Source of the DNA: Craspedostauros australis
Lineage: Eukaryota; Bacillariophyta; Bacillariophyceae; Mastogloiales; Achnanthaceae
NCBI GenBank assembly: GCA_026770025.1
Contig: JAMXDE010000003.1
Location: forward strand, 2,356,001 to 2,420,000
Length of the DNA stretch: 64,000 bases
Reading direction: 5' to 3'
In this document: in pieces, positions 4,488 through 51,628 of the stretch
Position numbering within the stretch: position 1 is the first letter of the stretch
How the letters are laid out: each line of letters opens with the position of its first letter
Position numbers and translations under genes: made by a program
The notes under the pieces: model-generated
Seen by the model: the letters and a program-made list of their open reading frames with translations, nothing else
Databases searched by the model: none
Told to the model about the DNA's origin: nothing

Positions 4488-6867
4488 TACCTATCTTATG
4501 AGGGTAACAATGCTTACAATCCTCGCACTCCAAGTCTGCCTGTGCCGCTGACCACCAAGCGCACCTTGTGGATGCAACACCATCGTTGACGGTTGGAATT
4601 GACAGTGGAATGTTGATTCTGCGGAAGTCAGCCGATCCATCACAAGATCGAACCTGGTCAGCCTCCGATGGGCGAATAATAAAAATGTGGGCATGTACAA
4701 TAAAAACAGATGTATTATATGATATACTGTTGTACTCTCCTTGTGTTCAGTGCGGTACATCATTCTGTTCTCGCAGAGTCGCTCCGTAGTTTTGTGACGC
4801 ACCAGAAACGATTCCCTGGGAATGTGTGTCAACACACACAAAACATTCCGGAATTCGTGAGCGCAGTGTCTGGTTTTGTTTTACACATGTTTCTACCAAA
4901 ACACCACATACTACGTCTGTCTGTCCACCAAAATCAGAAAAAGTACAGAGCCATTCTTTGGGTGTGACATGGAACAGAACCAGGAAAAGGAATGAAACGT
5001 GATCAAGAAAAGAGCAAAAACAAACTCACAAACTTCCACAACAACAACGAGACTCCGAAATCCTCCAGGAGAGGCGCAACGCACGGCAACTCGGCAACTC
5101 GAGAAGAGCAGAGCAGCGCACATCAGGAATGTGCCGTAGTCGCCAGCTGACTTTATTTTGCAGAACGGGAACCTTATCCTCCTGCACCTATCTTGTCACA
5201 GAGTCTCGTGCCCCTTGTATGAAATGAGAGACCACACGTGGAACGCGCGAGATCATGGTGCGACGAACCCGCCAGTGATCTCAGTTCCTGCGCTCACGAA
5301 GTACTACCAGCATCAGCAAAGGCAAAAGTAGCATCCCACTATACCTGGTGGAATGTGCTGATAGCTCTGCACCTTCATCCCATACCAATGTCGTATGGTA
5401 CGGCGCAGTGCGCGTACGTACCATCGCATTCTAATGCATTTTTTGCTCCACACCTAAAATCCAAGTCCACCGCGAGAAACTGCGTGCAATCAATTGGGGC
5501 CAAAAACAGCCGAAGTGTGTGCCCGTTCGCACGACTGTAGACACGTCTGAGTTCAGCTTCGAGCGCCTTGCTGTGAGCCTGTCTGCGAGAGGAAAAAAGA
5601 ACATTTTCGCCGCTTGGCTCGTCCAAGTTGAAGACAATGACGAGTCGCACCTATGTCCGATCGAAAGCTAAAACGTAAATCACAAACTACTGTGGGGAAT
5701 TTCTCAACTCAAGCCCTCATAACTTATAAAATATAAAGTGTAGCAATTCTAGGAAAGTCAATCCGTCACTTTCTCATAGAGAGGAACATCATATTAAATT
5801 TATGGAGAAATCTGAGAGGACTTCCCGGAAAGGTGTCACATTTTCGCTGCAGCGGGTCATAACGCCATTTCAACCGTTTCACACGTATCTCTCCTTGCTA
5901 TCGCCCTCTCCGACTTTGGTGGTGATTGGTTGGGAAATGGTCGAGATCTGCTCGTTTCTCTGACTATCACCATGACATAACACTCTTGTAATAGTGTGAA
6001 AGGCTGATTTACGACTACTTGACTTGCGTCTTCTACTGCAGTGCGAGATTGAACGAGGGCATGCATGCATCGTGCGAAAGCACGAGGTGCCAGCTCTCAG
6101 TTTAGTAGAGCGGTGATCGAGCAGGATGACTGATGACTCTGACGTCGTTGATCTGCTGGCCGAACGAAGGATGACGATGCTTGAAGATGTAGCGTCATTG
6201 CCTGAGGATCTGAAGCTTCAATGAACATGGCAGACGACGTAGGATGATGGAGGAGTTGTGTGTTTTCGGCGCGAACTTGTTGGTGCCATTTGTTGATTGG
6301 TATCTTCCATCGAGTCCCCGGTCACGGATACCGAGACGACTCGATGGACTACGACAAACACACAAGGAGAAACCTGGATGGCTTCCACAAAAAACGCTTG
6401 GACTTGTTCGGATGGCGATCTTCGTCTGCAAAATGACAAGATTTCAGACCTGAGCCAATGTGCAACCAGGTTCTTGCGCTCTATCATGCCCGCATTACCA
6501 ATAACACCAAAGTGCTCACCGCAACGGCACATGTGTTAACTATGTGAGGGACAACCGTCCATGGCACTGCCGGTGCTGGTCGCTCAGCGAAGGCCCGTTG
6601 CTCGCATACTGCACGCGTACACGAATGTCGATACGCAGAGCGATACTTTCCCTTGCCTTGCGCAGATGCGTGATCGTGTCTGTGTGTTGTATCATGGAGG
6701 GTGAACGGGCTGATGATGGTGTACTCTGATTTCTGTGGCGACTGCTCTCCTCGAGCACCATATGCGCTTCGGGATGCATCACGAGCAGTACCTCGAGCCA
6801 TCCACAGCATTGCGTCTGCACTGGTGCCTTCATCCGCAACGCCGCTCGAATGGAAACTCCATGCCGA
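4488..6867. other. Intergenic, no gene supported
   Basis: I see only short overlapping open frames with no recognisable domain, no tRNA-like cloverleaf and no clear transposon ends in this 2.4-kb stretch between the LTR cluster and the glycosyltransferase gene. Confidence 0.5.
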
Positions 6868-23722: not shown

Positions 23723-25522
23723 ATGTCCCTCAAGCAACTTACATTCCATACATTCCATACGAATGCAACGATGAATAATCGATTGAAACCTGGCGACGAT
23801 TGTTGGGACACAGCGGACATCGATCGCATCATGCTCTCGAATCCAGCCTCATCTTCGCCGAGGACTGCGACGCTCTCATCGGATCTGATGTCGTCGCGGT
23901 CTGCTCCATCCTCAACCGCCAGGAGCAACGGGAATCTCGTCGACTTTTTGCGCCTCAGAGGCAGCCGAGCTGGCATGGCACATCATCAACCGACGGATGT
24001 CACGAAGCTCGATCAGCTTGACATCGATCAAGATTCATGCGTTGATACGGAAAGCATCCCTGGTGGGGGAACTCTACACGCGAACCATTCGTCCTGTATG
24101 GAAAGTCCACTCCCGCTGGCATCCATGACATGGCTCTTCGATTCCTCAGACTCGTCATTGCCTTTCGCATCATTGCCTTCATCTCCACTGCGAACACCAA
24201 GAACGTCGCAGCCGCTGGGGTCAACGAAAGTAGTGGGAGCCCCAGAAGTTGCGGCACCGTATACATCGCATTCAGAACTGACAGAAGCAAGGGGATCCGC
24301 ATCAGCAACAGCAACAGCATTGCCATCGGCATTATCGACATCATGGAATCCAGCCATGGTTGACATGGAACCAGTTCCGATCGATCCCTATCGAATGGTG
24401 GTTGTGCCCAGAATTGATCACACGACTGTTTCATTTCCAGCAACATTTGCTCGGAAACAAGCGCCCTCCACTTCAACGTTTCCTCTACCTGCAGCTGCAT
24501 CTGCATCTGCATCTCTACCTGCAACCACAACTACAGCTAAGGTTTCAACTACGCATGCTCTTCCACACAAATCTGCAAGTGTAGGTGCAGTTGCAGTTGC
24601 AGGTAAGCCTGCGTCGTTCTCGTCCCTCAACTCACAGAAGAGCAAACGAAGCAGGAGCGCAACACGCCCACCTGCCACAACTGAACCTACCACCGGATAC
24701 ACTCGTCCCCTGATGCTTGTCCCCTCCAGCGACGAGAATTTGAAACGCCACAAGCGGTTCAAGAAGGAGAACAAGACAGCCCTCCCTCAAGCTGATAGGC
24801 GGAGATCATCGTGTGCGGGAAACCAAGACCGCAGCATTGGTCGGAGCAACAGCGCCACCAGCGTCAGCACCAACGCCAAAACCAGCGACAGTCACAGCAA
24901 CAGTACTCCTCACGCTGCCGGGGCATCCCTCGCGGCTGGCATACTCTCATCGACACAATCACACACATCTCTTTCGTCAGCGCAGTCGACACCCTCGATG
25001 CACACAGCAAATCAATCATTTCAACCAGGTAATGATGCCACAACACCAAACTCCAACCAGATTCGACAACACCAAGAAACACAGTGGGAGGCCAGATTCA
25101 ACGAGCTCTGTATATTCAAGAGGCAGTTTGGACACTGCGCCGTTCCCTACACCTACAAAGTGCATCCACAGCTCGCCCAGTGGACCAAACGACAGCGGTA
25201 CCAGTTCAAGCTCAAGACGGAGGGCCGCCATTGCACGTTGACAGATCGCAGGCAACAGATCTTGGACGATGTTGGCTTCGTGTGGGACTCCCACCACGCT
25301 CTGTGGGAATCCAGGTTCCAAGAATTGGCTGCGTACCGAGAGGAGCACGGCCACTGCCTTGTTCCGTGCAAGGATTCCATCCACAAACGTCTTGCTGTTT
25401 GGATCAAGTGCCAGAGGCGGCAGTACCGACTACTACAGCAGAATCGCCCAAGCAACATCACCCAGCAACGCATCGATCGCCTCAATGACATCGGATTTTG
25501 CTGGAGCCCACGGAAAGGTTGA
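23723..25522 (+). CDS. Protein with two helicase-associated (HA) domains
   Basis: A 599-aa intronless protein. Residues 1-450 are Ser/Thr/Ala-rich and probably disordered, with a basic patch KRHKRFKKENK near residue 340 that may be a nuclear signal. The C-terminus holds two HA domains (PF03457 type) near residues 455-522 and 527-597; each has W..RF.EL, a GHC.VP core, W.K.QR.Q and a closing DIGF.W. Such HA-domain proteins are expanded in diatoms and are presumed DNA-binding, though no function is established. A short motif near residue 215, EPVPIDPYRMVVVP, recurs at nearly the same place in the paralogue at 29472. A second Met (MNNRLKP) at residue 17 could be the start instead. Confidence 0.85.
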   Translation: MSLKQLTFHTFHTNATMNNRLKPGDDCWDTADIDRIMLSNPASSSPRTATLSSDLMSSRSAPSSTARSNGNLVDFLRLRGSRAGMAHHQPTDVTKLDQLDIDQDSCVDTESIPGGGTLHANHSSCMESPLPLASMTWLFDSSDSSLPFASLPSSPLRTPRTSQPLGSTKVVGAPEVAAPYTSHSELTEARGSASATATALPSALSTSWNPAMVDMEPVPIDPYRMVVVPRIDHTTVSFPATFARKQAPSTSTFPLPAAASASASLPATTTTAKVSTTHALPHKSASVGAVAVAGKPASFSSLNSQKSKRSRSATRPPATTEPTTGYTRPLMLVPSSDENLKRHKRFKKENKTALPQADRRRSSCAGNQDRSIGRSNSATSVSTNAKTSDSHSNSTPHAAGASLAAGILSSTQSHTSLSSAQSTPSMHTANQSFQPGNDATTPNSNQIRQHQETQWEARFNELCIFKRQFGHCAVPYTYKVHPQLAQWTKRQRYQFKLKTEGRHCTLTDRRQQILDDVGFVWDSHHALWESRFQELAAYREEHGHCLVPCKDSIHKRLAVWIKCQRRQYRLLQQNRPSNITQQRIDRLNDIGFCWSPRKG

Positions 25523-29471: not shown

Positions 29472-30866
29472 ATGAATAAAGGGGACATTATTGTCAAAAC
29501 CACGATCCGGATGGCGATGAATCCTCCCTTGTTGCTCATGACACAACAAACCACCCCAGGGCAAATTGGCAATTGTGGACGATCATCTCACAAATCATTT
29601 GATGCAACCAACGACACCATGAAGACGACATACGACCACCACCAGCAGCAGCAACAGCTTGCGCCTTTCCCCATGAACGGCCTGAAGTGCCCACTCTCCC
29701 TCTCTTCGAATCAGATGCTCTCGCTGCCGTCTCCCCCGGCCCTGCGTACCGCCTCTGGGCCATCCGTCTCCACGGTGTTCGCAGCGCGACCATCTACTCT
29801 GAACAGCACGGTCGCATCTGTGTCCAGTGCGACCGCTGCAGCTTGGATACAACCCGCAACGTTCAAGTTGGATGATGGGTGCGTAGCCTCATCGCGTTGC
29901 TTCCCGTGGCCAACGTCGACAACATCGGTCCCGCTCGACTTGAACGGAGTTGAAGGAGGAAGGGCGGCAGCGATTTTGTCGACGGCCGCGAATCCTCCCG
30001 ACTCGTTCACCATTCGTCGTTCGGATGATGTGCACGGCGCAAACCCACGCAACGCCACCGGCGAGGTCGGCATCGACGCTCGCATGCTGGAACCCGTCCC
30101 CATCGAGCCAAGCCGCGTGACCGTGGTACCCAAAGTGGACATCATCGACATGATCAGCACCTCGCAAGAACTCACCAACGAATCCATGCTCGCGTTTTTG
30201 CGACCGCTCGTTGAGTGCAGCCAGCAGCAACAGCAAGAATCGCAAGAATCGAAACCGAAGAAACGCGCCCCATCTGCCGATGAGTACCTGCGGCAGCACA
30301 AGCGCTGCAAACGAGCCGAGTCCAAGACGAAGACAGAGTACTCGTACTTCGTTCACCTGCGCACAGCACCGATCGACGAGGACGCCGAGTCGTCTTCCAG
30401 AATCCGCAACCACCAGGAGGCGCAGTGGGAGCACCGATTCAAGGAGTTGCAGATCTTCAAGGAACGGTCCGGTCACTGCAGCGTGCCGCACACCTTCAAG
30501 GATTTCCCACAGCTGGCGCAGTGGGTCAAGCGGCAACGGTACCAGTTCAAGCTCAAGATGGAGGGAAGGCATTCCACCCTCACGAGGAACCGGCAGCAGC
30601 GGCTGGACGATGTCGGCTTCGTTTGGGACTCGCATCACGGCCTTTGGGAGCAAAAGTACCAAGAGTTGCTGAGGTTCGAGAAGGAGCACGGCCACTGCAC
30701 CGTCCCCACCAGATTCAAGGACAACCCATCACTTGCGGTCTGGGTCAAATGCCAGCGACGCCAGTACAAGCTCATGAAGCAGGGCCGCCGATCGAACATC
30801 ACGCAGCAGCGCGTGGACCGATTGAACGAACTGGGCTTTTGCTGGAATCCACGATCGCTTGCATGA
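29472..30866 (+). CDS. Protein with two helicase-associated (HA) domains, paralogue
   Basis: A 464-aa intronless paralogue of the 23723 gene. It has the same plan: a low-complexity N-terminus with a QQQQ tract, the motif EPVPIEPSRVTVVPKVD near residue 206, a basic stretch HKRCKRAESK near 280, then two HA domains near residues 319-386 and 390-460. The HA regions of the two proteins are close (QWVKRQRYQFKLKMEGRH against QWTKRQRYQFKLKTEGRH), whereas the N-terminal halves are largely unalike apart from the short motif. The likely role is a nuclear DNA-binding or regulatory protein; this is inferred from the domain only. The gene pair looks like a local duplication. Confidence 0.85.
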   Translation: MNKGDIIVKTTIRMAMNPPLLLMTQQTTPGQIGNCGRSSHKSFDATNDTMKTTYDHHQQQQQLAPFPMNGLKCPLSLSSNQMLSLPSPPALRTASGPSVSTVFAARPSTLNSTVASVSSATAAAWIQPATFKLDDGCVASSRCFPWPTSTTSVPLDLNGVEGGRAAAILSTAANPPDSFTIRRSDDVHGANPRNATGEVGIDARMLEPVPIEPSRVTVVPKVDIIDMISTSQELTNESMLAFLRPLVECSQQQQQESQESKPKKRAPSADEYLRQHKRCKRAESKTKTEYSYFVHLRTAPIDEDAESSSRIRNHQEAQWEHRFKELQIFKERSGHCSVPHTFKDFPQLAQWVKRQRYQFKLKMEGRHSTLTRNRQQRLDDVGFVWDSHHGLWEQKYQELLRFEKEHGHCTVPTRFKDNPSLAVWVKCQRRQYKLMKQGRRSNITQQRVDRLNELGFCWNPRSLA

Positions 30867-40445: not shown

Positions 40446-40448
40446 CAG
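40446..40448. repeat. Target-site duplication CAG of copy A, left
   Basis: CAG directly precedes the terminal inverted repeat; the matching CAG follows the other end at 51626-51628. Harbinger elements commonly insert at 3-bp TWA or CWG sites. Confidence 0.85.
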
Positions 40449-40571
40449 GGGCTTCCGGTAAAACGGACTATCGGACTAACGGACAACAACACAATTGCTT
40501 TTACGGACATTTGCAGCCATGAATGCGAGTTATTTAGTCGCGGTTTGGATGTCGTCTCCGACAGTTTTTAG

Positions 40572-40590
40572 TTTCAATCCGTGATTGAAA
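40572..40590. repeat. Subterminal hairpin in copy A
   Basis: Perfect arms TTTCAATC and GATTGAAA around a 3-nt loop, lying between the terminal repeat and the 6-unit array. The same hairpin occurs in copy B at 50488-50506. Confidence 0.8.
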
Positions 40591-40616
40591 TGTCTCTCAG
40601 CTGCAGCGAAACAAAA

Positions 40617-40787
40617 CGTGCCCTAATTTAGGGCACGTGTTGAAAAGGTGCCCTATTTAGAGCACGTTTTGAAAAGATGCCCTATTTAGGGCACGTTTTG
40701 AAAAGATGCCCTATTTAGAGCACGTTTTGAAAAGGTGCCCTATTTAGAGCACGTTTTGAAAAGATGCCCTAAATAGGGCACGTTTTC
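40617..40787. repeat. Subterminal array of six palindromic units (copy A, non-transposase end)
   Basis: Six units of about 29-30 bp, each made of GTGCCCTATTTAGRGCAC followed by GTTTTGAAAAG. The core GCCCTAWWTAGGGC is itself an inverted repeat, so each unit can fold. Slight variants (GAGC for GGGC, ATGCCC for GTGCCC) alternate along the array. They are likely binding sites for an element-encoded protein. Confidence 0.9.
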
Positions 40788-41087
40788 ACAGTAGCCCAGA
40801 AGCGTGGGGCACATCTCGAGGAAGCATCTTTGGAGAGTGATGTCCTGCAATCAGCGTGGATGGTTTTGGGTGTGCTCTATTTTAGTCTACTTTAACACGA
40901 CTCATCACCCACAAAACTCCACAACTAGTGTTGTCGCTTGCAAGCTCAACGCATTTTCCGTTCTTTGCAGGGAGTAGGGAGAGAGTGCCTAATTTCGCGC
41001 TCCACTGCCCTTGTCCACACAACTATCAGAGACATCATTGGAGAACTAGTTGCACAATATCAGGAATCCATACTGCAGTACTCTACT

Positions 41088-42164
41088 CTATTTTGTTTTC
41101 GATGCACCCTTTCTTCGGAGTGCCTCTATCTTGTCATTCTTTGACTGCTCTCTATTGCTCAAATAGTTCTTGTATTTGCGGAGGCGCTGCTCTTGTGCCA
41201 CATGATTTCTGAATTTGGCCATTGGCACTGTTTGGAACACCTCCTTGGAGTCATAGAATTGCCGAATTGTCATGCCATTGCCTTCGTTGTTCTTCATTGC
41301 AGTTTTCAGAGATGTTTGGATATCTGATCCCTCCCATTGTGGTTCTCCAAGATGGTTCGTTGCTGGTTTTGTGTGATTGTTTGCATAGTTGTCAAAAGCA
41401 CGCTGGTCAATCTCTTTCCGTTCATCATTTGCGGCAATCTGTCGTCGGAGGGTATTCAGACGACCTGCAAATTTTGCTGGATCATACTTTGAAAGCTCCG
41501 GTATCATATGATAGACTTCCCGTGGTGGAGGAGGATTGTTTTCTTTTTGCTTCTGGCCTCGCTTTTGTCCCACCTTTGAAATGTCTCCTCTGACGATGGC
41601 TTCACGAAGCAATTCCTTTGCCTTGCTGTGGCGCCATTCAACAGCAGGCTCGATGAATGCCAGTTTTGAGGTGCCTGTTGGGTTGGTTTTCCGTGGCAGT
41701 GCAGCTGGCTTTGCACAAGCCATCCTGTTTCTTGTTGCAACAAGATTTGATGATGGGCGTGCTGACTTGGTTGTGCACCTTGATGGTATCTGCCGATGAG
41801 TGTCCATACCTTGCTGCATTGGAGGGGTTGGCGTTGAAGCATGGGGCGTCGAGGAAATTCTCCTGTTGCCCTGGATGGATGTTGTTTGAGGCGTGGTCTT
41901 GGTGTTCACGCGCAGACGCCCTGCTGACAGGCATGGGGTGGTCTTCCTTGTACTTGGTGGCCTGTTCTTGTGGTGTGCCATTGTTGTTGTGGTCGATGCC
42001 TGTGCCTCCTTTGAGGTGTCTTGGTTTTGTTTTGTCATCACCATGATGCACCCCTCTGTTTTTGAAACATGTGCGTGTGTGATTTCATGGATCAAGTTTC
42101 CTGTGATCCTCGATCTCTCTGTTTCCGATGTGGGTTGTGGCATTGGCCCGCTGTCGCTGTCCAT
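41088..42164 (-). CDS. Harbinger accessory protein Y (358 aa), copy A
   Basis: An intact single-exon gene identical in translation to 48914-49990. Residues 1-170 are low-complexity, rich in Thr, Pro, Lys and Gln. The C-terminal half has two related repeats: W-x2-SKAKELL..YHMIPELSKYDPAKFAGRL and W-x2-SDIQTSLK..YDSKEVFQTVPMAKFRNHV, each helical with a conserved Trp and Tyr/Phe. Repeats of this style occur in diatom hypothetical proteins; I know of no assigned function. In other Harbinger elements a second Myb-like protein helps the transposase reach the nucleus and bind DNA, and Y may fill that place. That is inference. Confidence 0.75.
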   Translation of the reverse strand: MDSDSGPMPQPTSETERSRITGNLIHEITHAHVSKTEGCIMVMTKQNQDTSKEAQASTTTTMAHHKNRPPSTRKTTPCLSAGRLRVNTKTTPQTTSIQGNRRISSTPHASTPTPPMQQGMDTHRQIPSRCTTKSARPSSNLVATRNRMACAKPAALPRKTNPTGTSKLAFIEPAVEWRHSKAKELLREAIVRGDISKVGQKRGQKQKENNPPPPREVYHMIPELSKYDPAKFAGRLNTLRRQIAANDERKEIDQRAFDNYANNHTKPATNHLGEPQWEGSDIQTSLKTAMKNNEGNGMTIRQFYDSKEVFQTVPMAKFRNHVAQEQRLRKYKNYLSNREQSKNDKIEALRRKGASKTK

Positions 42165-42518
42165 TTCTTCTGGCGATGTCTCTTGGTTGTGGTGACGCCG
42201 CCTTCTGTGGGGCTAATTTAGTACCTGCCAACAGCTGAGGAAAATGCAAACTGTATCGTTGGTTCGAACGTCAGGACAGGGCACGAGGTCGTCCGTGGTG
42301 CGTGAGGACGGACAGAGAGAGTCCTGGACATGCTCCTCGACGGTTTGATTGGCAGCAAGGTTCGTACGTCGAGCTGCTGTGTGGTTGTGCCACTGAACAT
42401 CGTCAGGTTTCGATTGGCATCGTCGTGGGTTGTTGCCGGTTATTGTTTCTTCGCCGCTGGGCCGGCGTTGCTTCATTGTGGTGGTTGATGCTCTCAAATT
42501 CGCGTCTTGATCATAATC

Positions 42519-44355
42519 ATGCCATCGACACCACCGAAACAGACACCACCACCATACGCCAGCCCGCAGCGCATCCGCCTGCCAACGTGTGTCCTTGCCT
42601 CCCTTGCTCAAGACATCGAAGACGAAGGAGGTATCCAGCATTTCAACCGTCTTGGAAAGCAGCCAACGAAGATACTCTGCGACAGGAATCCGGAACTCTA
42701 CGGCGAAAAACTGTCTGCTCGTCGGAATGCCATCCGCAAGAAAGTAGTCAAGTGGAAGCAACTCAACACCATTGACTACGAGCAGAAAGTAATCAAGGCT
42801 CTTGGCATCAAGAGAAATAGAGGACCACAACAGCTGCAGAGAACGCCATCCACAAGCAACAGTATTGATGATCTGACATCCAGCATCCAACATCTCAGCT
42901 TGTCATCGCCAAATCAAACCAAATACGCACTGTCTGTGAAGCCAACGCCATCGTCGAGCAGACTCATCAGTCCAAAATCATTGCTGCATACCCCACAGCA
43001 TCAATTGAAGATGGATTCAAGCCAAGGAAACATTGGTGGGTCCCTTACATTGTCTGCAATGCAATGAAACACAATGCAACCCCCCCCCCCCCCCCCCCAA
43101 CTCACACCACCTTGCTTCTTTGTCATCATCTTTCCCTCTTCTTATCCACAGCAACCACGACCGTTGACATCGCAAATTTTCATGCGAATCGAGAAGTGAA
43201 GGTGGTGCCTCTGACTAACATCCCTGCCATCAAATCCCGTGCCAACCACAACATCTCCATGTTCCAAGGATACATGATCATATGTCAGATCGAACAACGA
43301 GTCACCCGGGCCTACAACAACATTGAGGTGTACATGGCACAGATCATTGCCAACAATGAGGTGCTCATCACACTACCAGCCATCGAACACGCGTTTTTCG
43401 AAAATCGTGAAGACTTTGCCAAGAAGCTGACACCTGATGAGCTCGCAGGCTTAGACAACGCCATCAACAAGCTCCCAAAGAGTGGAGGGCCAGAACTCAA
43501 ACAGATACGTCTGATCTTCCCCAGCGATCATGTATTGGACGTGACCGAGATTCAGGAGGACTCCGAGGATGGCATCATCGACCCCAAACTGATCCGTGCA
43601 AAGTGGAAAGAGACACCCAGCTCTGGCGTTTCTGAGCGATACGTTGTGTGGAAGGTTGCACGCGCAGATATCGAACCTGAGAAACGCGGTCCTGCGCAGA
43701 AGATCCGCAAGAGCCGTCTTGCTCGCCAGCTGAGTGGAGAAGACGATGAAGGTATGCTTTGATGGGGCTTTGCATGCATGAAGAGTGCTCTACGTCCTAA
43801 TCGTTCTAACCATCACATTCAAATTGGCTCGACTTGACTCTCTCACTGTTCACAATCATAGGCTGCAATGGGACTGACGCACCATCCATGTACGATGAGT
43901 ACACAGTTGCATCTGAGATGAGCTCGAAATGCAACATCTCCGCCAACACACCAGCCCCTTTCCCAGTCCACAGCTCCTCCAATTTCCGTGGGGGAGCTCG
44001 GACCAACGAAATCCACCAACCTCTCGCAGTTTCTTCAGCGGGTGGCATCCCTCCAGTGCAGGAAGCTCCCCCAGCAAACAATTCGTACAACCCTCAAGCA
44101 TATAGAGCATTTGAAACATCTAGTGGAGATGGGGACAGCGCTCTCTCTTCTTTGGCTGTTGCTGCTGCACAAGAGCCATCAAGCCAGTATGCATCAACAG
44201 AAGACAGCTCCTCGCATGATTCGGAAGTTCTCGCACTTGCCAGTCAAGCAATTGCGAGCATGCGGAGCCACATCGCAGACGGTCAGCACACTCTCGACTT
44301 CATGATGCATGATGAGACCATGCAGAACAAGCGATTCAAAAGCGGGGAACCATAA
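42519..44355 (+). CDS. Harbinger accessory protein X (536 aa), copy A
   Basis: Three exons: 42519-43035, 43152-43751 and 43862-44355. Introns of 116 and 110 bp use GTGGGT...CACAG and GTATGC...CATAG; both splices fall in phase 1 and leave one open frame. Residues 1-100 hold a compact basic module (LAQDIEDEGGIQHFN, ELYGEKLSARRNAIRKKVVKWK) that could bind DNA. The middle exon encodes a folded-looking 200-residue domain without a recognised family, and the last exon a Ser/Ala-rich tail. The first intron contains a run of 19 C. The start is ATG at 42519. It lies convergent with the transposase remnant at 44513. Function is unknown. Confidence 0.7.
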
Positions 44356-44512
44356 CCAATCAATTTAGCATGCGACACTTCATTGTAGCATTTTTCTATA
44401 CATGGTAAGATCCACAGTTTTGCGGAGCACACAATCACACGCATCAACAATAATATCTAAAAGTTGGCATTCCAAGAAACAGTAGTACTCTATTGATGTC
44501 TGCTTTATGTGC

Positions 44513-45042
44513 TCAGACGTATGTATCGAAGATTGGCTGTTCAAGTTCCATTTTGTATTGGCACAGAACGCAGACGGCCTCAAAGCAGGTGGAGAATTTT
44601 GGCACTTTGTGTCGGAATTTGCTGCTGCACACACCGAAGGTCTTTGTGAGATTGTTGAATGCCTCCACACGCATGCGCGCTCGCGCTTTGAACTTTGCAA
44701 CTTCTGGGCTGTCATCGGTGTTCGGTGTGCTGAGGATTGTTGGATACCCAACATACCCATTGTCAGCAATGCCCATCTTTCCTATGGATTCGAGTTTCTG
44801 CTTCAGACCGTGGTCTTTGAATATAGATACATCGTTTGTTCCTGCTTTGAATGGCCCATTCATCCAAATCAACCGACTCTCTGAAACTGCCAATGCTAGT
44901 TCATAGTTCATCCCTGCACGATGAAACTTGTGTGAATAGTAGGTCTTGTCTTGTGGCAGTGTGGGATGGTTTGGTTCCTCAATGCGACAGTGGGTACCAT
45001 CAACACACACAACCCAGATGTCGCTATGGTAGTTGTGAGCTG
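44513..45042 (-). pseudogene. Transposase of copy A, C-terminal part
   Basis: It encodes the DDE part of the transposase from the AHNYHSD segment to the stop, identical to the same part of the intact gene at 45579-46565. It is cut from its N-terminal half by copy B. It keeps all three catalytic residues but has lost its own start. Confidence 0.9.
45040..45042. repeat. Target-site duplication CTG of copy B, left
   Basis: CTG precedes the terminal repeat of copy B and recurs at 50630-50632. The uninterrupted transposase gene has the single site GAGCTGGCC at this place, confirming a 3-bp duplication. Confidence 0.9.
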
Positions 45043-45194
45043 GGGCTTCCGGTAAACTGCCGGACATGGGAAGTCGGACATACTGTTCGCGAACTGAAGA
45101 ACAATACTAGTCGTGTATGCGATTTTATTAGTCATGGTTGTCATGTCCTTCAGACATTCTCGTCGCGACTCGCGACTCGTATCTGTATGGTGTC

Positions 45195-45394
45195 AAAAGA
45201 TGCCCTATTTAGGGCACCTTTTTCAAAACGTGCTCTAAATAGGGCACCTTTTCAAAACGTGCCCTATTTAGGGCATCTTTTCAAAACGTGCTCTAAATAG
45301 GGCACCTTTTCAAAACGTGCTCTAAATAGGGCATCTTTTCAAAACGTGCTCTAAATAGGGCACCTTTTCAAAACGTGCCCTATTTAGGGCACGT
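45195..45394. repeat. Subterminal array of seven palindromic units (copy B, transposase end)
   Basis: Seven units of about 29 bp with cores such as GTGCTCTAAATAGGGCACC spaced by TTTTCAAAAC. They are in opposite orientation to the units at the other end, so the two arrays face each other. They end about 185 bp before the transposase start and may also act as its promoter region. Confidence 0.9.
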
Positions 45395-45578
45395 TGCCCT
45401 CGCACCCACGTGTCGCTGTTCGGAGACAGCCAGATGACAGACGGAGCAGCAGCAACCCCGCACGCAGCGACACGACAGTGGAGGATTATCAACGTCGCGT
45501 CAATTCAACGTGACAGCAACTGCACAGGACTGTGCAACACTCTGCTTGCGCTGGGACTGCCAAAGTCAATGCTGAAAC

Positions 45579-46565
45579 ATGAGGGAGGTGGCTCCACATG
45601 AACCAAACACATTGCCACAAACCAAGCAACCAACACCCATCTGCAACCGTGCAGTCATGAACCCAACAATACAGTTCACCCATCATGAAGCCATGATGCT
45701 TGGCTTGCGCCTGCTGTACACCGACAAGCAGATCAATCGAGTCAAGGCTGGGAGCAACACCAACGCCAACCGGTTTCGAGCTCACTTTGGTGTATCCCCG
45801 GCAGTATGCTGCCAAGTCTTCGAGGATCTCCAGACAACAAAAGTGGCTGCTGCCAGAATGGATCCATCAACCATCAAAGTAGAGCGATTGCTGATGGCCC
45901 TTCACTTCATCAAGACATATCAGACAGAGGATGGACGAGAGGCAACATTCGCCTTGAGCTCAAAGACTCTTCGAGCACACACATGGCACTATCTTGAGAA
46001 GGTGCAAGCTCTGAAAGCCCAAAAGATCATTTGGCCAGCTCACAACTACCATAGCGACATCTGGGTTGTGTGTGTTGATGGTACCCACTGTCGCATTGAG
46101 GAACCAAACCATCCCACACTGCCACAAGACAAGACCTACTATTCACACAAGTTTCATCGTGCAGGGATGAACTATGAACTAGCATTGGCAGTTTCAGAGA
46201 GTCGGTTGATTTGGATGAATGGGCCATTCAAAGCAGGAACAAACGATGTATCTATATTCAAAGACCACGGTCTGAAGCAGAAACTCGAATCCATAGGAAA
46301 GATGGGCATTGCTGACAATGGGTATGTTGGGTATCCAACAATCCTCAGCACACCGAACACCGATGACAGCCCAGAAGTTGCAAAGTTCAAAGCGCGAGCG
46401 CGCATGCGTGTGGAGGCATTCAACAATCTCACAAAGACCTTCGGTGTGTGCAGCAGCAAATTCCGACACAAAGTGCCAAAATTCTCCACCTGCTTTGAGG
46501 CCGTCTGCGTTCTGTGCCAATACAAAATGGAACTTGAACAGCCAATCTTCGATACATACGTCTGA
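45579..46565 (+). CDS. PIF/Harbinger DDE transposase, intact (copy B)
   Basis: A 328-aa single-exon nuclease of the DDE_Tnp_4 type. The likely catalytic residues are Asp167 (CVDGTHC), Asp246 (GIADNGYVGYP) and Glu279 (RVEAFNNLTK), matching the Harbinger pattern VDGTH, D.GY and E..N...K. The N-terminal region (FRAHFGVSPAVCCQVFEDL) looks like the helix-turn-helix that precedes the catalytic fold in this family. It should cut and rejoin element ends with 3-bp CWG duplication. The start ATG at 45579 gives the longest frame; Met27 (MNPTIQF) is an alternative. A short upstream frame at 45410-45601 may be leader sequence. Confidence 0.93.
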   Translation: MREVAPHEPNTLPQTKQPTPICNRAVMNPTIQFTHHEAMMLGLRLLYTDKQINRVKAGSNTNANRFRAHFGVSPAVCCQVFEDLQTTKVAAARMDPSTIKVERLLMALHFIKTYQTEDGREATFALSSKTLRAHTWHYLEKVQALKAQKIIWPAHNYHSDIWVVCVDGTHCRIEEPNHPTLPQDKTYYSHKFHRAGMNYELALAVSESRLIWMNGPFKAGTNDVSIFKDHGLKQKLESIGKMGIADNGYVGYPTILSTPNTDDSPEVAKFKARARMRVEAFNNLTKTFGVCSSKFRHKVPKFSTCFEAVCVLCQYKMELEQPIFDTYV

Positions 46566-46722
46566 GCACATAAAGCAGACATCAATAGAGTACTACTGTT
46601 TCTTGGAATGCCAACTTTTAGATATTATTGTTGATGCGTGTGATTGTGTGCTCCGCAAAACTGTGGATCTTACCATGTATAGAAAAATGCTACAATGAAG
46701 TGTCGCATGCTAAATTGATTGG

Positions 46723-48559
46723 TTATGGTTCCCCGCTTTTGAATCGCTTGTTCTGCATGGTCTCATCATGCATCATGAAGTCGAGAGTGTGCTGACCGTC
46801 TGCGATGTGGCTCCGCATGCTCGCAATTGCTTGACTGGCAAGTGCGAGAACTTCCGAATCATGCGAGGAGCTGTCTTCTGTTGATGCATACTGGCTTGAT
46901 GGCTCTTGTGCAGCAGCAACAGCCAAAGAAGAGAGAGCGCTGTCCCCATCTCCACTAGATGTTTCAAATGCTCTATATGCTTGAGGGTTGTACGAATTGT
47001 TTGCTGGGGGAGCTTCCTGCACTGGAGGGATGCCACCCGCTGAAGAAACTGCGAGAGGTTGGTGGATTTCGTTGGTCCGAGCTCCCCCACGGAAATTGGA
47101 GGAGCTGTGGACTGGGAAAGGGGCTGGTGTGTTGGCGGAGATGTTGCATTTCGAGCTCATCTCAGATGCAACTGTGTACTCATCGTACATGGATGGTGCG
47201 TCAGTCCCATTGCAGCCTATGATTGTGAACAGTGAGAGAGTCAAGTCGAGCCAATTTGAATGTGATGGTTAGAACGATTAGGACGTAGAGCACTCTTCAT
47301 GCATGCAAAGCCCCATCAAAGCATACCTTCATCGTCTTCTCCACTCAGCTGGCGAGCAAGACGGCTCTTGCGGATCTTCTGCGCAGGACCGCGTTTCTCA
47401 GGTTCGATATCTGCGCGTGCAACCTTCCACACAACGTATCGCTCAGAAACGCCAGAGCTGGGTGTCTCTTTCCACTTTGCACGGATCAGTTTGGGGTCGA
47501 TGATGCCATCCTCGGAGTCCTCCTGAATCTCGGTCACGTCCAATACATGATCGCTGGGGAAGATCAGACGTATCTGTTTGAGTTCTGGCCCTCCACTCTT
47601 TGGGAGCTTGTTGATGGCGTTGTCTAAGCCTGCGAGCTCATCAGGTGTCAGCTTCTTGGCAAAGTCTTCACGATTTTCGAAAAACGCGTGTTCGATGGCT
47701 GGTAGTGTGATGAGCACCTCATTGTTGGCAATGATCTGTGCCATGTACACCTCAATGTTGTTGTAGGCCCGGGTGACTCGTTGTTCGATCTGACATATGA
47801 TCATGTATCCTTGGAACATGGAGATGTTGTGGTTGGCACGGGATTTGATGGCAGGGATGTTAGTCAGAGGCACCACCTTCACTTCTCGATTCGCATGAAA
47901 ATTTGCGATGTCAACGGTCGTGGTTGCTGTGGATAAGAAGAGGGAAAGATGATGACAAAGAAGCAAGGTGGTGTGAGTTGGGGGGGGGGGGGGGGGGGTT
48001 GCATTGTGTTTCATTGCATTGCAGACAATGTAAGGGACCCACCAATGTTTCCTTGGCTTGAATCCATCTTCAATTGATGCTGTGGGGTATGCAGCAATGA
48101 TTTTGGACTGATGAGTCTGCTCGACGATGGCGTTGGCTTCACAGACAGTGCGTATTTGGTTTGATTTGGCGATGACAAGCTGAGATGTTGGATGCTGGAT
48201 GTCAGATCATCAATACTGTTGCTTGTGGATGGCGTTCTCTGCAGCTGTTGTGGTCCTCTATTTCTCTTGATGCCAAGAGCCTTGATTACTTTCTGCTCGT
48301 AGTCAATGGTGTTGAGTTGCTTCCACTTGACTACTTTCTTGCGGATGGCATTCCGACGAGCAGACAGTTTTTCGCCGTAGAGTTCCGGATTCCTGTCGCA
48401 GAGTATCTTCGTTGGCTGCTTTCCAAGACGGTTGAAATGCTGGATACCTCCTTCGTCTTCGATGTCTTGAGCAAGGGAGGCAAGGACACACGTTGGCAGG
48501 CGGATGCGCTGCGGGCTGGCGTATGGTGGTGGTGTCTGTTTCGGTGGTGTCGATGGCAT
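46723..48559 (-). CDS. Harbinger accessory protein X (536 aa), copy B
   Basis: The mirror of the gene at 42519-44355: exons 48559-48043, 47926-47327 and 47216-46723, introns 116 and 110 bp, identical product. The homopolymer in the first intron is 19 G on the plus strand, the same length as the 19 C in copy A. It is transcribed convergently with the transposase, with 157 bp between the two stop codons. Confidence 0.7.
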
Positions 48560-48913
48560 GATTATGATCAAGACGCGAATTTGAGAGCATCAACCACCAC
48601 AATGAAGCAACGCCGGCCCAGCGGCGAAGAAACAATAACCGGCAACAACCCACGACGATGCCAATCGAAACCTGACGATGTTCAGTGGCACAACCACACA
48701 GCAGCTCGACGTACGAACCTTGCTGCCAATCAAACCGTCGAGGAGCATGTCCAGGACTCTCTCTGTCCGTCCTCACGCACCACGGACGACCTCGTGCCCT
48801 GTCCTGACGTTCGAACCAACGATACAGTTTGCATTTTCCTCAGCTGTTGGCAGGTACTAAATTAGCCCCACAGAAGGCGGCGTCACCACAACCAAGAGAC
48901 ATCGCCAGAAGAA

Positions 48914-49990
48914 ATGGACAGCGACAGCGGGCCAATGCCACAACCCACATCGGAAACAGAGAGATCGAGGATCACAGGAAACTTGATCCATGAAATCACA
49001 CACGCACATGTTTCAAAAACAGAGGGGTGCATCATGGTGATGACAAAACAAAACCAAGACACCTCAAAGGAGGCACAGGCATCGACCACAACAACAATGG
49101 CACACCACAAGAACAGGCCACCAAGTACAAGGAAGACCACCCCATGCCTGTCAGCAGGGCGTCTGCGCGTGAACACCAAGACCACGCCTCAAACAACATC
49201 CATCCAGGGCAACAGGAGAATTTCCTCGACGCCCCATGCTTCAACGCCAACCCCTCCAATGCAGCAAGGTATGGACACTCATCGGCAGATACCATCAAGG
49301 TGCACAACCAAGTCAGCACGCCCATCATCAAATCTTGTTGCAACAAGAAACAGGATGGCTTGTGCAAAGCCAGCTGCACTGCCACGGAAAACCAACCCAA
49401 CAGGCACCTCAAAACTGGCATTCATCGAGCCTGCTGTTGAATGGCGCCACAGCAAGGCAAAGGAATTGCTTCGTGAAGCCATCGTCAGAGGAGACATTTC
49501 AAAGGTGGGACAAAAGCGAGGCCAGAAGCAAAAAGAAAACAATCCTCCTCCACCACGGGAAGTCTATCATATGATACCGGAGCTTTCAAAGTATGATCCA
49601 GCAAAATTTGCAGGTCGTCTGAATACCCTCCGACGACAGATTGCCGCAAATGATGAACGGAAAGAGATTGACCAGCGTGCTTTTGACAACTATGCAAACA
49701 ATCACACAAAACCAGCAACGAACCATCTTGGAGAACCACAATGGGAGGGATCAGATATCCAAACATCTCTGAAAACTGCAATGAAGAACAACGAAGGCAA
49801 TGGCATGACAATTCGGCAATTCTATGACTCCAAGGAGGTGTTCCAAACAGTGCCAATGGCCAAATTCAGAAATCATGTGGCACAAGAGCAGCGCCTCCGC
49901 AAATACAAGAACTATTTGAGCAATAGAGAGCAGTCAAAGAATGACAAGATAGAGGCACTCCGAAGAAAGGGTGCATCGAAAACAAAATAG
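48914..49990 (+). CDS. Harbinger accessory protein Y (358 aa), copy B
   Basis: Intact and identical to the copy A gene at 41088-42164: a low-complexity N-terminal half, then two W/Y-containing helical repeats and a basic end (RRKGASKTK). The gene is divergent from accessory X, with a 354-bp shared intergenic region that should hold both promoters. Confidence 0.75.
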   Translation: MDSDSGPMPQPTSETERSRITGNLIHEITHAHVSKTEGCIMVMTKQNQDTSKEAQASTTTTMAHHKNRPPSTRKTTPCLSAGRLRVNTKTTPQTTSIQGNRRISSTPHASTPTPPMQQGMDTHRQIPSRCTTKSARPSSNLVATRNRMACAKPAALPRKTNPTGTSKLAFIEPAVEWRHSKAKELLREAIVRGDISKVGQKRGQKQKENNPPPPREVYHMIPELSKYDPAKFAGRLNTLRRQIAANDERKEIDQRAFDNYANNHTKPATNHLGEPQWEGSDIQTSLKTAMKNNEGNGMTIRQFYDSKEVFQTVPMAKFRNHVAQEQRLRKYKNYLSNREQSKNDKIEALRRKGASKTK

Positions 49991-50290
49991 AGTAGAGTAC
50001 TGCAGTATGGATTCCTGATATTGTGCAACTAGTTCTCCAATGATGTCTCTGATAGTTGTGTGGACAAGGGCAGTGGAGCGCGAAATTAGGCACTCTCTCC
50101 CTACTCCCTGCAAAGAACGGAAAATGCGTTGAGCTTGCAAGCGACAACACTAGTTGTGGAGTTTTGTGGGTGATGAGTCGTGTTAAAGTAGACTAAAATA
50201 GAGCACACCCAAAACCATCCACGCTGATTGCAGGACATCACTCTCCAAAGATGCTTCCTCGAGATGTGCCCCACGCTTCTGGGCTACTGT

Positions 50291-50461
50291 GAAAACGTGC
50301 CCTAAATAGGGCATCTTTTCAAAACGTGCTCTAAATAGGGCACCTTTTCAAAACGTGCTCTAAATAGGGCATCTTTTCAAAACGTGCCCTAAATAGGGCA
50401 TCTTTTCAAAACGTGCTCTAAATAGGGCACCTTTTCAACACGTGCCCTAAATTAGGGCACG
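50291..50461. repeat. Subterminal array of six palindromic units (copy B, non-transposase end)
   Basis: Exact mirror of the array at 40617-40787, lying about 170 bp inside the right end of copy B. Confidence 0.9.
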
Positions 50462-50629
50462 TTTTGTTTCGCTGCAGCTGAGAGACATTTCAATCACGGA
50501 TTGAAACTAAAAACTGTCGGAGACGACATCCAAACCGCGACTAAATAACTCGCATTCATGGCTGCAAATGTCCGTAAAAGCAATTGTGTTGTTGTCCGTT
50601 AGTCCGATAGTCCGTTTTACCGGAAGCCC

Positions 50630-50632
50630 CTG
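50630..50632. repeat. Target-site duplication CTG of copy B, right
   Basis: Matches the CTG at 45040-45042; the copy A transposase sequence resumes immediately after it. Confidence 0.9.
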
Positions 50633-51089
50633 GCCAAATGATCTTTTGGGCTTTCAGAGCTTGCACCTTCTCAAGATAGTGCCATGTGTGTGCTCGAAGA
50701 GTCTTTGAGCTCAAGGCGAATGTTGCCTCTCGTCCATCCTCTGTCTGATATGTCTTGATGAAGTGAAGGGCCATCAGCAATCGCTCTACTTTGATGGTTG
50801 ATGGATCCATTCTGGCAGCAGCCACTTTTGTTGTCTGGAGATCCTCGAAGACTTGGCAGCATACTGCCGGGGATACACCAAAGTGAGCTCGAAACCGGTT
50901 GGCGTTGGTGTTGCTCCCAGCCTTGACTCGATTGATCTGCTTGTCGGTGTACAGCAGGCGCAAGCCAAGCATCATGGCTTCATGATGGGTGAACTGTATT
51001 GTTGGGTTCATGACTGCACGGTTGCAGATGGGTGTTGGTTGCTTGGTTTGTGGCAATGTGTTTGGTTCATGTGGAGCCACCTCCCTCAT
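50633..51089 (-). pseudogene. Transposase of copy A, N-terminal part
   Basis: It encodes the first 152 residues (start MREVAPHEP at 51089) up to the Trp-Pro where copy B is inserted. Reading then runs into the terminal repeat of B. It contains the helix-turn-helix region without any catalytic residue, so a truncated DNA-binding protein is conceivable. Confidence 0.9.
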
Positions 51090-51273
51090 GTTTCAGCATT
51101 GACTTTGGCAGTCCCAGCGCAAGCAGAGTGTTGCACAGTCCTGTGCAGTTGCTGTCACGTTGAATTGACGCGACGTTGATAATCCTCCACTGTCGTGTCG
51201 CTGCGTGCGGGGTTGCTGCTGCTCCGTCTGTCATCTGGCTGTCTCCGAACAGCGACACGTGGGTGCGAGGGCA

Positions 51274-51473
51274 ACGTGCCCTAAATAGGGCACGTTTTGA
51301 AAAGGTGCCCTATTTAGAGCACGTTTTGAAAAGATGCCCTATTTAGAGCACGTTTTGAAAAGGTGCCCTATTTAGAGCACGTTTTGAAAAGATGCCCTAA
51401 ATAGGGCACGTTTTGAAAAGGTGCCCTATTTAGAGCACGTTTTGAAAAAGGTGCCCTAAATAGGGCATCTTTT
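51274..51473. repeat. Subterminal array of seven palindromic units (copy A, transposase end)
   Basis: Exact mirror of the array at 45195-45394, about 150 bp inside the right end of copy A. Confidence 0.9.
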
Positions 51474-51628
51474 GACACCATACAGATACGAGTCGCGAGT
51501 CGCGACGAGAATGTCTGAAGGACATGACAACCATGACTAATAAAATCGCATACACGACTAGTATTGTTCTTCAGTTCGCGAACAGTATGTCCGACTTCCC
51601 ATGTCCGGCAGTTTACCGGAAGCCCCAG

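Follow-up and report, generated by a model that had tools for sequence, protein, structure and literature searches.

Can the ends of a transposon, the length of its target-site duplication and the order of two insertions all be read from a single place in a genome, and to which group would such an element belong? The locus considered here lies in a 64,000-nucleotide stretch of contig JAMXDE010000003.1 of the diatom Craspedostauros australis (the window, to which positions refer unless a contig is named), in which one transposon, copy B (45043-50629), sits in opposite orientation inside another, copy A (40449-51625), within the transposase gene of A. An initial annotation, made from the sequence alone, had described this arrangement as a Harbinger transposon inserted into codon 153 of the transposase gene of an equal-length copy of itself. 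Four terminal inverted repeats (TIRs), the junctions and the alignments of the arms agree with that description, and the nested insertion, as read from the assembled sequence, is confirmed.

Two copies at one locus

The TIR GGGCTTCCGGTAAA, which is perfect over exactly 14 bp, is found at 40449 and 45043 on the forward strand and at 50629 and 51625 on the reverse strand, that is, four times in a window in which 0.01 matches are expected by chance. Copy A consists of 40449-45042 plus 50633-51625, so that A and B are each 5,587 bp long; A is flanked by CAG/CAG at the outer junctions and B by CTG/CTG at the inner ones, and length, common TIR and duplications are all as originally described. When 40449-45042 is aligned with the reverse complement of 46036-50629, there are 2 differences in 4,594 bases, and 45043-46035 aligns with the reverse complement of 50633-51625 with 0 differences in 993. 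The wording "copy of itself" therefore holds as near identity (2 of 5,587 bases, adjacent, at 40772-40773) but not as full identity. The point of insertion is codon 153 of the transposase frame, counted on the B copy from ATG 45579, or codon 127 when counted from the second ATG at 45657. The empty target site can be read directly at 46036-46038, in the uninterrupted transposase gene of B, and the same site is uninterrupted in three copies, namely B and two further full-length copies on other contigs, C5 (C5:1254480-1260070) and C21 (C21:853814-859401). All four junctions, the two duplications and the empty site agree with a single event, the insertion of B into A, from which it follows that A inserted first and B second. 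Ends, duplication and order can thus be read from this one locus, as had been claimed (Table 1).

An empty outer site of A was not seen elsewhere in the genome, as a search with the joined flank (240 bases) returned only the two flanks of A itself. There is no clear sign of a host gene broken by A, the frames across the joined flanks being short (at most 114 amino acids, aa).

Table 1. Coordinates of the nested elements and their parts in the window.
Feature	Position	Strand
Outer target-site duplication, left (CAG)	40446..40448	
Copy A, first part; genes opposite to those of B	40449..45042	-
3' part of A's split transposase gene, with the three residues read as catalytic	44513..45042	-
Inner target-site duplication, left (CTG)	45040..45042	
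Copy B, complete element	45043..50629	+
TIR of B, left, 14 bp	45043..45056	+
Subterminal array, 7 palindromic or near-palindromic units, ~29 bp spacing	45195..45395	
Transposase gene of B, uninterrupted, 328 aa, DDE_Tnp_4	45579..46565	+
Empty target site in B transposase gene (CAG on + strand)	46036..46038	+
ORF3, third gene of B; predicted exons 48559-48043, 47926-47327, 47216-46723; 536 aa	46723..48559	-
ORF2, second gene of B, 358 aa, tandemly duplicated domain	48914..49990	+
Subterminal array, 6 palindromic or near-palindromic units, ~29 bp spacing	50290..50460	
TIR of B, right	50616..50629	-
Inner target-site duplication, right (CTG)	50630..50632	
Copy A, second part, with 5' part of split transposase gene (from ATG 51089)	50633..51625	-
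Outer target-site duplication, right (CAG)	51626..51628	

Copies and target sites in the genome

The exact TIR occurs 50 times in the genome (74.8 Mb, 90 contigs): 8 occurrences bound the four full-length copies A, B, C5 and C21, 34 bound 17 short copies (392-883 bp), and the remaining 8, found as single ends, proved to belong to short, decayed copies when inspected. B, C5 and C21 have 0 substitutions among them and differ only in poly-C length. As B equals the unlinked C5 and C21, the full-length copies are young without conversion having to be invoked. Eighteen of the 21 complete insertions have matching 3-bp flanks, and all 18 are CWG (W, A or T; 8 CAG and 10 CTG as oriented). Other copies with different ends or duplication length would have spoken against the structure read at the nest; C5 and C21, both flanked by CTG/CTG, and 14 of the 17 short copies agree with it in having identical ends and a 3-bp CWG duplication, whereas the flanks of three short copies on contigs C64 and C66 (L023, L024 and L025) do not match (CTG/CAG, CAG/CAC and CTG/CAG).

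Among the short copies, eight of 826-827 bp (L011, L012, L013, L015, L016, L017, L020 and L022) have no substitution among them; L027 differs from these by 0 substitutions and 88 gap columns, and the remaining short copies are more divergent. On C40 lies a diverged relic (L070) with 82% identity over 1.07 kb. C64 and C66 hold several diverged short copies close together that share the TIR (L023, L024, L025, L026, L028 and L034, three of them with the non-matching flanks); a larger repeat may have carried them along as it spread. The decayed short copies L029 and L031 lie on different contigs and have an identical 15-bp flank at the one end that was read, and so do L030 and L033; each pair may go back to one insertion that was later duplicated with its surroundings.

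Related families in this genome use CWG too, relaxing to CNG. The transposase of family F2 is 55-57% identical to that of the window, while its TIR, GGGAACACGG, is different; its inverted arms are at least 640-720 bp long (the matches reach the end of the stretch compared), and of its three copies, the two that were read have the flanks CTG/CTG and CAG/CAG. Families F3, F4 and F5 have the TIR GGACACBCGGCAAA, with 139 ends, 137 of which follow CNG; by preceding triplet, 122 of the 139 are CWG, 15 are CSG (S, C or G) and one is AGG. For 100 of the 122 CWG places, neighbouring ends could be compared: 31 of 32 pairs carry the same W, paired ends being up to 17 kb apart, so that a few may not belong to one element. 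Neighbouring CSG pairs match in four of four cases (by eye). Since CWG makes up only 59% of CNG in the window, W is favoured at these ends (p 1.7e-14). For F8, with the TIR GAACACCCAACATTTTG and decayed transposase frames, 46 ends follow CNG (44 CWG, 2 CSG); the search pattern required CNG, so these counts test the centre base only. Neighbouring F8 ends match in 19 of 22 pairs and do not in three (by eye). CWG is not absolute here, because one F8 copy (L093, L094) has a CCG/CGG target. F6 has CWG at four of four loci, and F9 is consistent with CCG and CTG (one end only, by eye, in both). Taken together, this suggests CNG as the probable target of the wider group.

Gene content and a proposed two-protein mechanism

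The window transposase matches the Pfam model DDE_Tnp_4 with 54.3 bits (cut-off 24.8), as do all 16 aligned transposases of this genome. All 16 carry D141, D220 and E253 (numbering from the second ATG), which we read as the putative catalytic triad; B splits the A transposase 14 codons before the first of them. Searches against the PDB gave no match at E ≤1 with the single transposase sequence and one chance-like match (E 0.8) with the profile. Across the genome, 133 transposase matches came from the 130 of 458 candidates that were scored, and the 130 places used below leave aside three N-terminal pieces. No transposase match was found among them inside the short or single-end elements with this TIR.

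The second gene, ORF2 (ORF, open reading frame), encodes a protein of 358 aa with 45 matches in the genome, of which 43 entered the linkage count, since two matches are pieces of one C40 copy. In 34 of the 43 cases a transposase match is found no more than 12 kb from the ORF2 relative (~4% expected), and in 29 of these 34 the distance is 3-4 kb. The conserved part of ORF2 is tandemly duplicated, as the first half matches the second with an hhalign E-value of 3.2e-10; eight column-shuffled controls gave E 0.015-0.7 and four transposase slices E 0.2-0.63. Pfam hits of ORF2 are scattered and none is significant (best E 0.0085), the nearest to a DNA-binding fold being HTH_71 (E 0.1, 2 of 20 members, not significant). 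Among PDB sequences (12 sequences, E up to 10) there was no Myb/SANT match, and the best hit was a beta-N-acetylhexosaminidase (0.017). An assignment of ORF2 to Myb/SANT finds no support in these Pfam (20 members) and PDB sequence comparisons. Four hits of an ORF2 pattern in viral contigs were also set aside, as none is a relative by tblastn.

ORF3 has three predicted exons; the two introns between them (116 and 110 bp) are in frame and of the GT-AG type. Outside the four full-length copies its exon 2 matches only three F2 copies, at 27-28% identity, and no Pfam match was found for ORF3. The idea that exon 1 is a copy of the ORF2 domain was dropped, as hhalign gave no support (E 0.095 and 0.12). 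The poly-C/G tract at 47980-47998 of B lies in a predicted ORF3 intron and is 4 bases longer in C5 and 1 base longer in C21. Just inside the element ends lie 13 palindromic or near-palindromic units (GCCCTAWWTAGGGC and variants) in two arrays of 7 and 6; none was found elsewhere in the window outside the element, and short copies keep 1-7 units each (7 of 17 examined). At 40772-40773, a unit that reads TATTTA in B, C5 and C21 reads TAAATA in A, which is the outcome expected from a palindrome flip or from conversion from the unit at 5354 (element coordinates).

We propose that a cut-and-paste element of the PHIS (PIF/Harbinger-like) superfamily inserted as copy A at CAG and that copy B later inserted into the A transposase gene at CTG, the element acting as a two-protein system; we regard this as very probable. 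Ping/Pong and Harbinger3_DR have been reported to need two proteins (PMC2836001), and the Myb-like protein of Harbinger3_DR from zebrafish has been reported to bind a 9-bp subterminal motif (PMC9710019); the two-protein part of our proposal is modelled on this requirement and this binding. The insertion of the first element at CAG created the CAG duplication of copy A, and the later, reversed insertion at CTG duplicated CTG and split the A transposase. The DDE transposase would cut at the 14-bp TIRs and make a 3-bp stagger at CWG target sites. The ORF2 protein, with its duplicated domain, might bind the palindromic units of the subterminal arrays and bring in the transposase. The same proteins would move the short copies with the same TIR, which we assume because none of the other elements examined with this TIR contains a transposase match. 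With its outer TIRs present, the composite of 11.2 kb might in principle be mobilised in trans even though the A transposase is split.

No observation contradicts the nesting, but several weigh against the two-protein model. Nine of the 43 ORF2 places lack a listed transposase match within 12 kb, though the list covers 130 of 458 candidates; none of 20 ORF2 members matched a Myb/SANT model of Pfam (E up to 0.5), and the AlphaFold2 model of ORF2, built from a single sequence, is poor and mostly helical (mean predicted local distance difference test score 57.7, predicted template modelling score 0.25). Three of the 21 insertions (L023, L024 and L025, as described above) lack matching flanks, and between the 826-bp copies and the full-length element the ends are only ~82-85% alike (76-87% among the short copies listed). 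This last point suggests that the 826-bp copies derive from another, unseen parent, and one might speculate that the short copies are moved by another transposase, such as that of F2. We consider this somewhat unlikely, as the 50 exact TIRs bound only full-length, short or decayed copies, with no transposase match in the latter two (130 of 458 candidates scored), and the F2 TIR differs.

The remaining alternatives concern the nest itself. Near-identical inverted copies are difficult to assemble and the locus is known from the assembly alone, so that two elements might have been mis-joined into a false 4.6-kb inverted repeat; yet the inner junctions carry an exact 3-bp duplication, the same site is uninterrupted in B, C5 and C21, A and B differ by 2 bp, and a clean CWG duplication is not expected from a mis-join, which makes an artefact extremely unlikely. 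Inverted arms of 4.6 kb also invite gene conversion, which could have homogenised A and B, in which case their identity would not date the insertion. That B equals the unlinked C5 and C21 and that A retains a private 2-bp difference render this reading highly unlikely. It could further be argued that the element inserts preferentially into copies of itself, either through local hopping, for instance, or by way of proteins tethered to subterminal sites, given that ~0.006 self-hits are expected from 21 insertions into 4 target copies and one was seen, a figure that also bears out the description of the nest as uncommon. Such targeting seems unlikely to us: it rests on a single event chosen for being striking, no position other than CWG exceeds 0.38 bits in the 18 sites (G at +4 in 10 of 18), CWG is about as dense in the element (36.9 per kb) as in the window (34.8 per kb), and C5 and C21 carry no insert.

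Elsewhere in the window, a reverse transcriptase frame (RVT_2, copia-type) lies at 171-2318, and two frames with helicase-associated (HA) domains lie at 23723-25519 and 29472-30863. The genome contains 61 light-harvesting protein matches; the one compared with the PDB is closest to LHCI-11 of 9vfj, followed by other 9vfj LHCI chains and fucoxanthin chlorophyll a/c proteins (8iwh, 8j5k). It also has 88 silicon transporter family matches; 32 of these cover almost the entire Pfam model, and 28 of the 32 are free of internal stops (by eye). Such a gene set points to a silicifying photosynthetic alga, most probably a diatom.

Significance and comparison with known systems

Nesting as an event is ordinary biology, if uncommon, and the main value of the locus is the transposon family that it opens. 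We tentatively entertain the possibility, which we hold to be somewhat doubtful, that the elements represent a PHIS group of their own within stramenopiles, with a CNG target in which W is favoured, that an undescribed, tandemly duplicated DNA-binding partner reads the palindromic arrays in place of Myb/SANT, and that the group has been active recently, perhaps still, in this diatom. The 0 substitutions between unlinked full-length copies and among eight short copies make the element a candidate for a currently mobile one in a silicifying alga. A CNG target of the wider group would bear on site choice by PHIS transposases, and ORF2 may represent a new kind of partner protein that can be compared with Myb/SANT.

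The elements share with the PHIS superfamily a DDE_Tnp_4 transposase and a 14-bp TIR with a 3-bp duplication (18 of 21). A second gene, which encodes Myb/SANT or YqaJ in most PHIS groups, is present, with a Myb/SANT match in 0 of 20 members and a helical model of low confidence. Known PIF/Harbinger members match DDE_Tnp_4, and the transposase described here is of the same type. The name Harbinger given in the initial annotation is hence apt in the broad PHIS sense; the CWG target fits the NuwaI group and not TWA-type PIF/Harbinger. PIF/Harbinger in the strict sense (Ping/Pong/mPing of rice, insect PIF) is similar in having two genes and mobilised short copies, as reported (PMC2836001, PMC9710019), whereas the TWA duplication is found in 0 of 18 sites here and ORF2 has no Myb/SANT/MADF match. 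The elements also differ from the Pangu group, whose ANT duplication is seen in 0 of 18 sites, and from the ISL2EU group (2-bp AT, YqaJ) in their 3-bp CWG duplication and in that no YqaJ match was found among the frames scanned.

Harbinger3_DR has a CWG target. Its second protein is reported to bind a 9-bp motif in subterminal regions; in the element described here, palindromic units that might be bound in a similar way lie in both subterminal regions. The ORF2 domain is not recognisable as Myb by sequence. Among stramenopiles, the Harbinger elements reported from the brown alga Ectocarpus likewise have two genes, but their reported targets are ANT or TNA and not CWG (PMC12477816), and Harbinger-like elements have been reported from the diatom Thalassiosira pseudonana (PMC2806351).

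The closest likeness is to NuwaI, for which a CWG duplication and a TIR of 12-61 bp that usually starts with GGG have been described, together with a Myb/SANT partner encoded by most autonomous candidates (PMC4482050). That 2015 survey covered 836 genomes, 121 protists among them, and places NuwaI in 16 animal genomes, "mainly" in animals according to its abstract and "only" there according to its section 7 (PMC4482050). No CWG Harbinger elements outside animals were found in the open-access literature searched, and the present elements place the CWG target outside animals. One further paper matching CWG was discarded, CWG there being author initials. The elements resemble NuwaI in the 3-bp CWG duplication (18 of 18 matching), the 14-bp TIR and a DDE transposase accompanied by a second gene; they differ in the diatom host, the relatives that relax to CNG, the third gene and a second protein without detectable Myb/SANT. 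Judging by duplication and TIR, the two features that they clearly share with the group, we refer to them as NuwaI-like and do not file them as NuwaI. Finally, according to a proposal still unproven when it was made, self-insertion is one of the costs that length brings to PIF/Pong/Harbinger elements (PMC10288884), and the nest of B in A provides a natural case of it.

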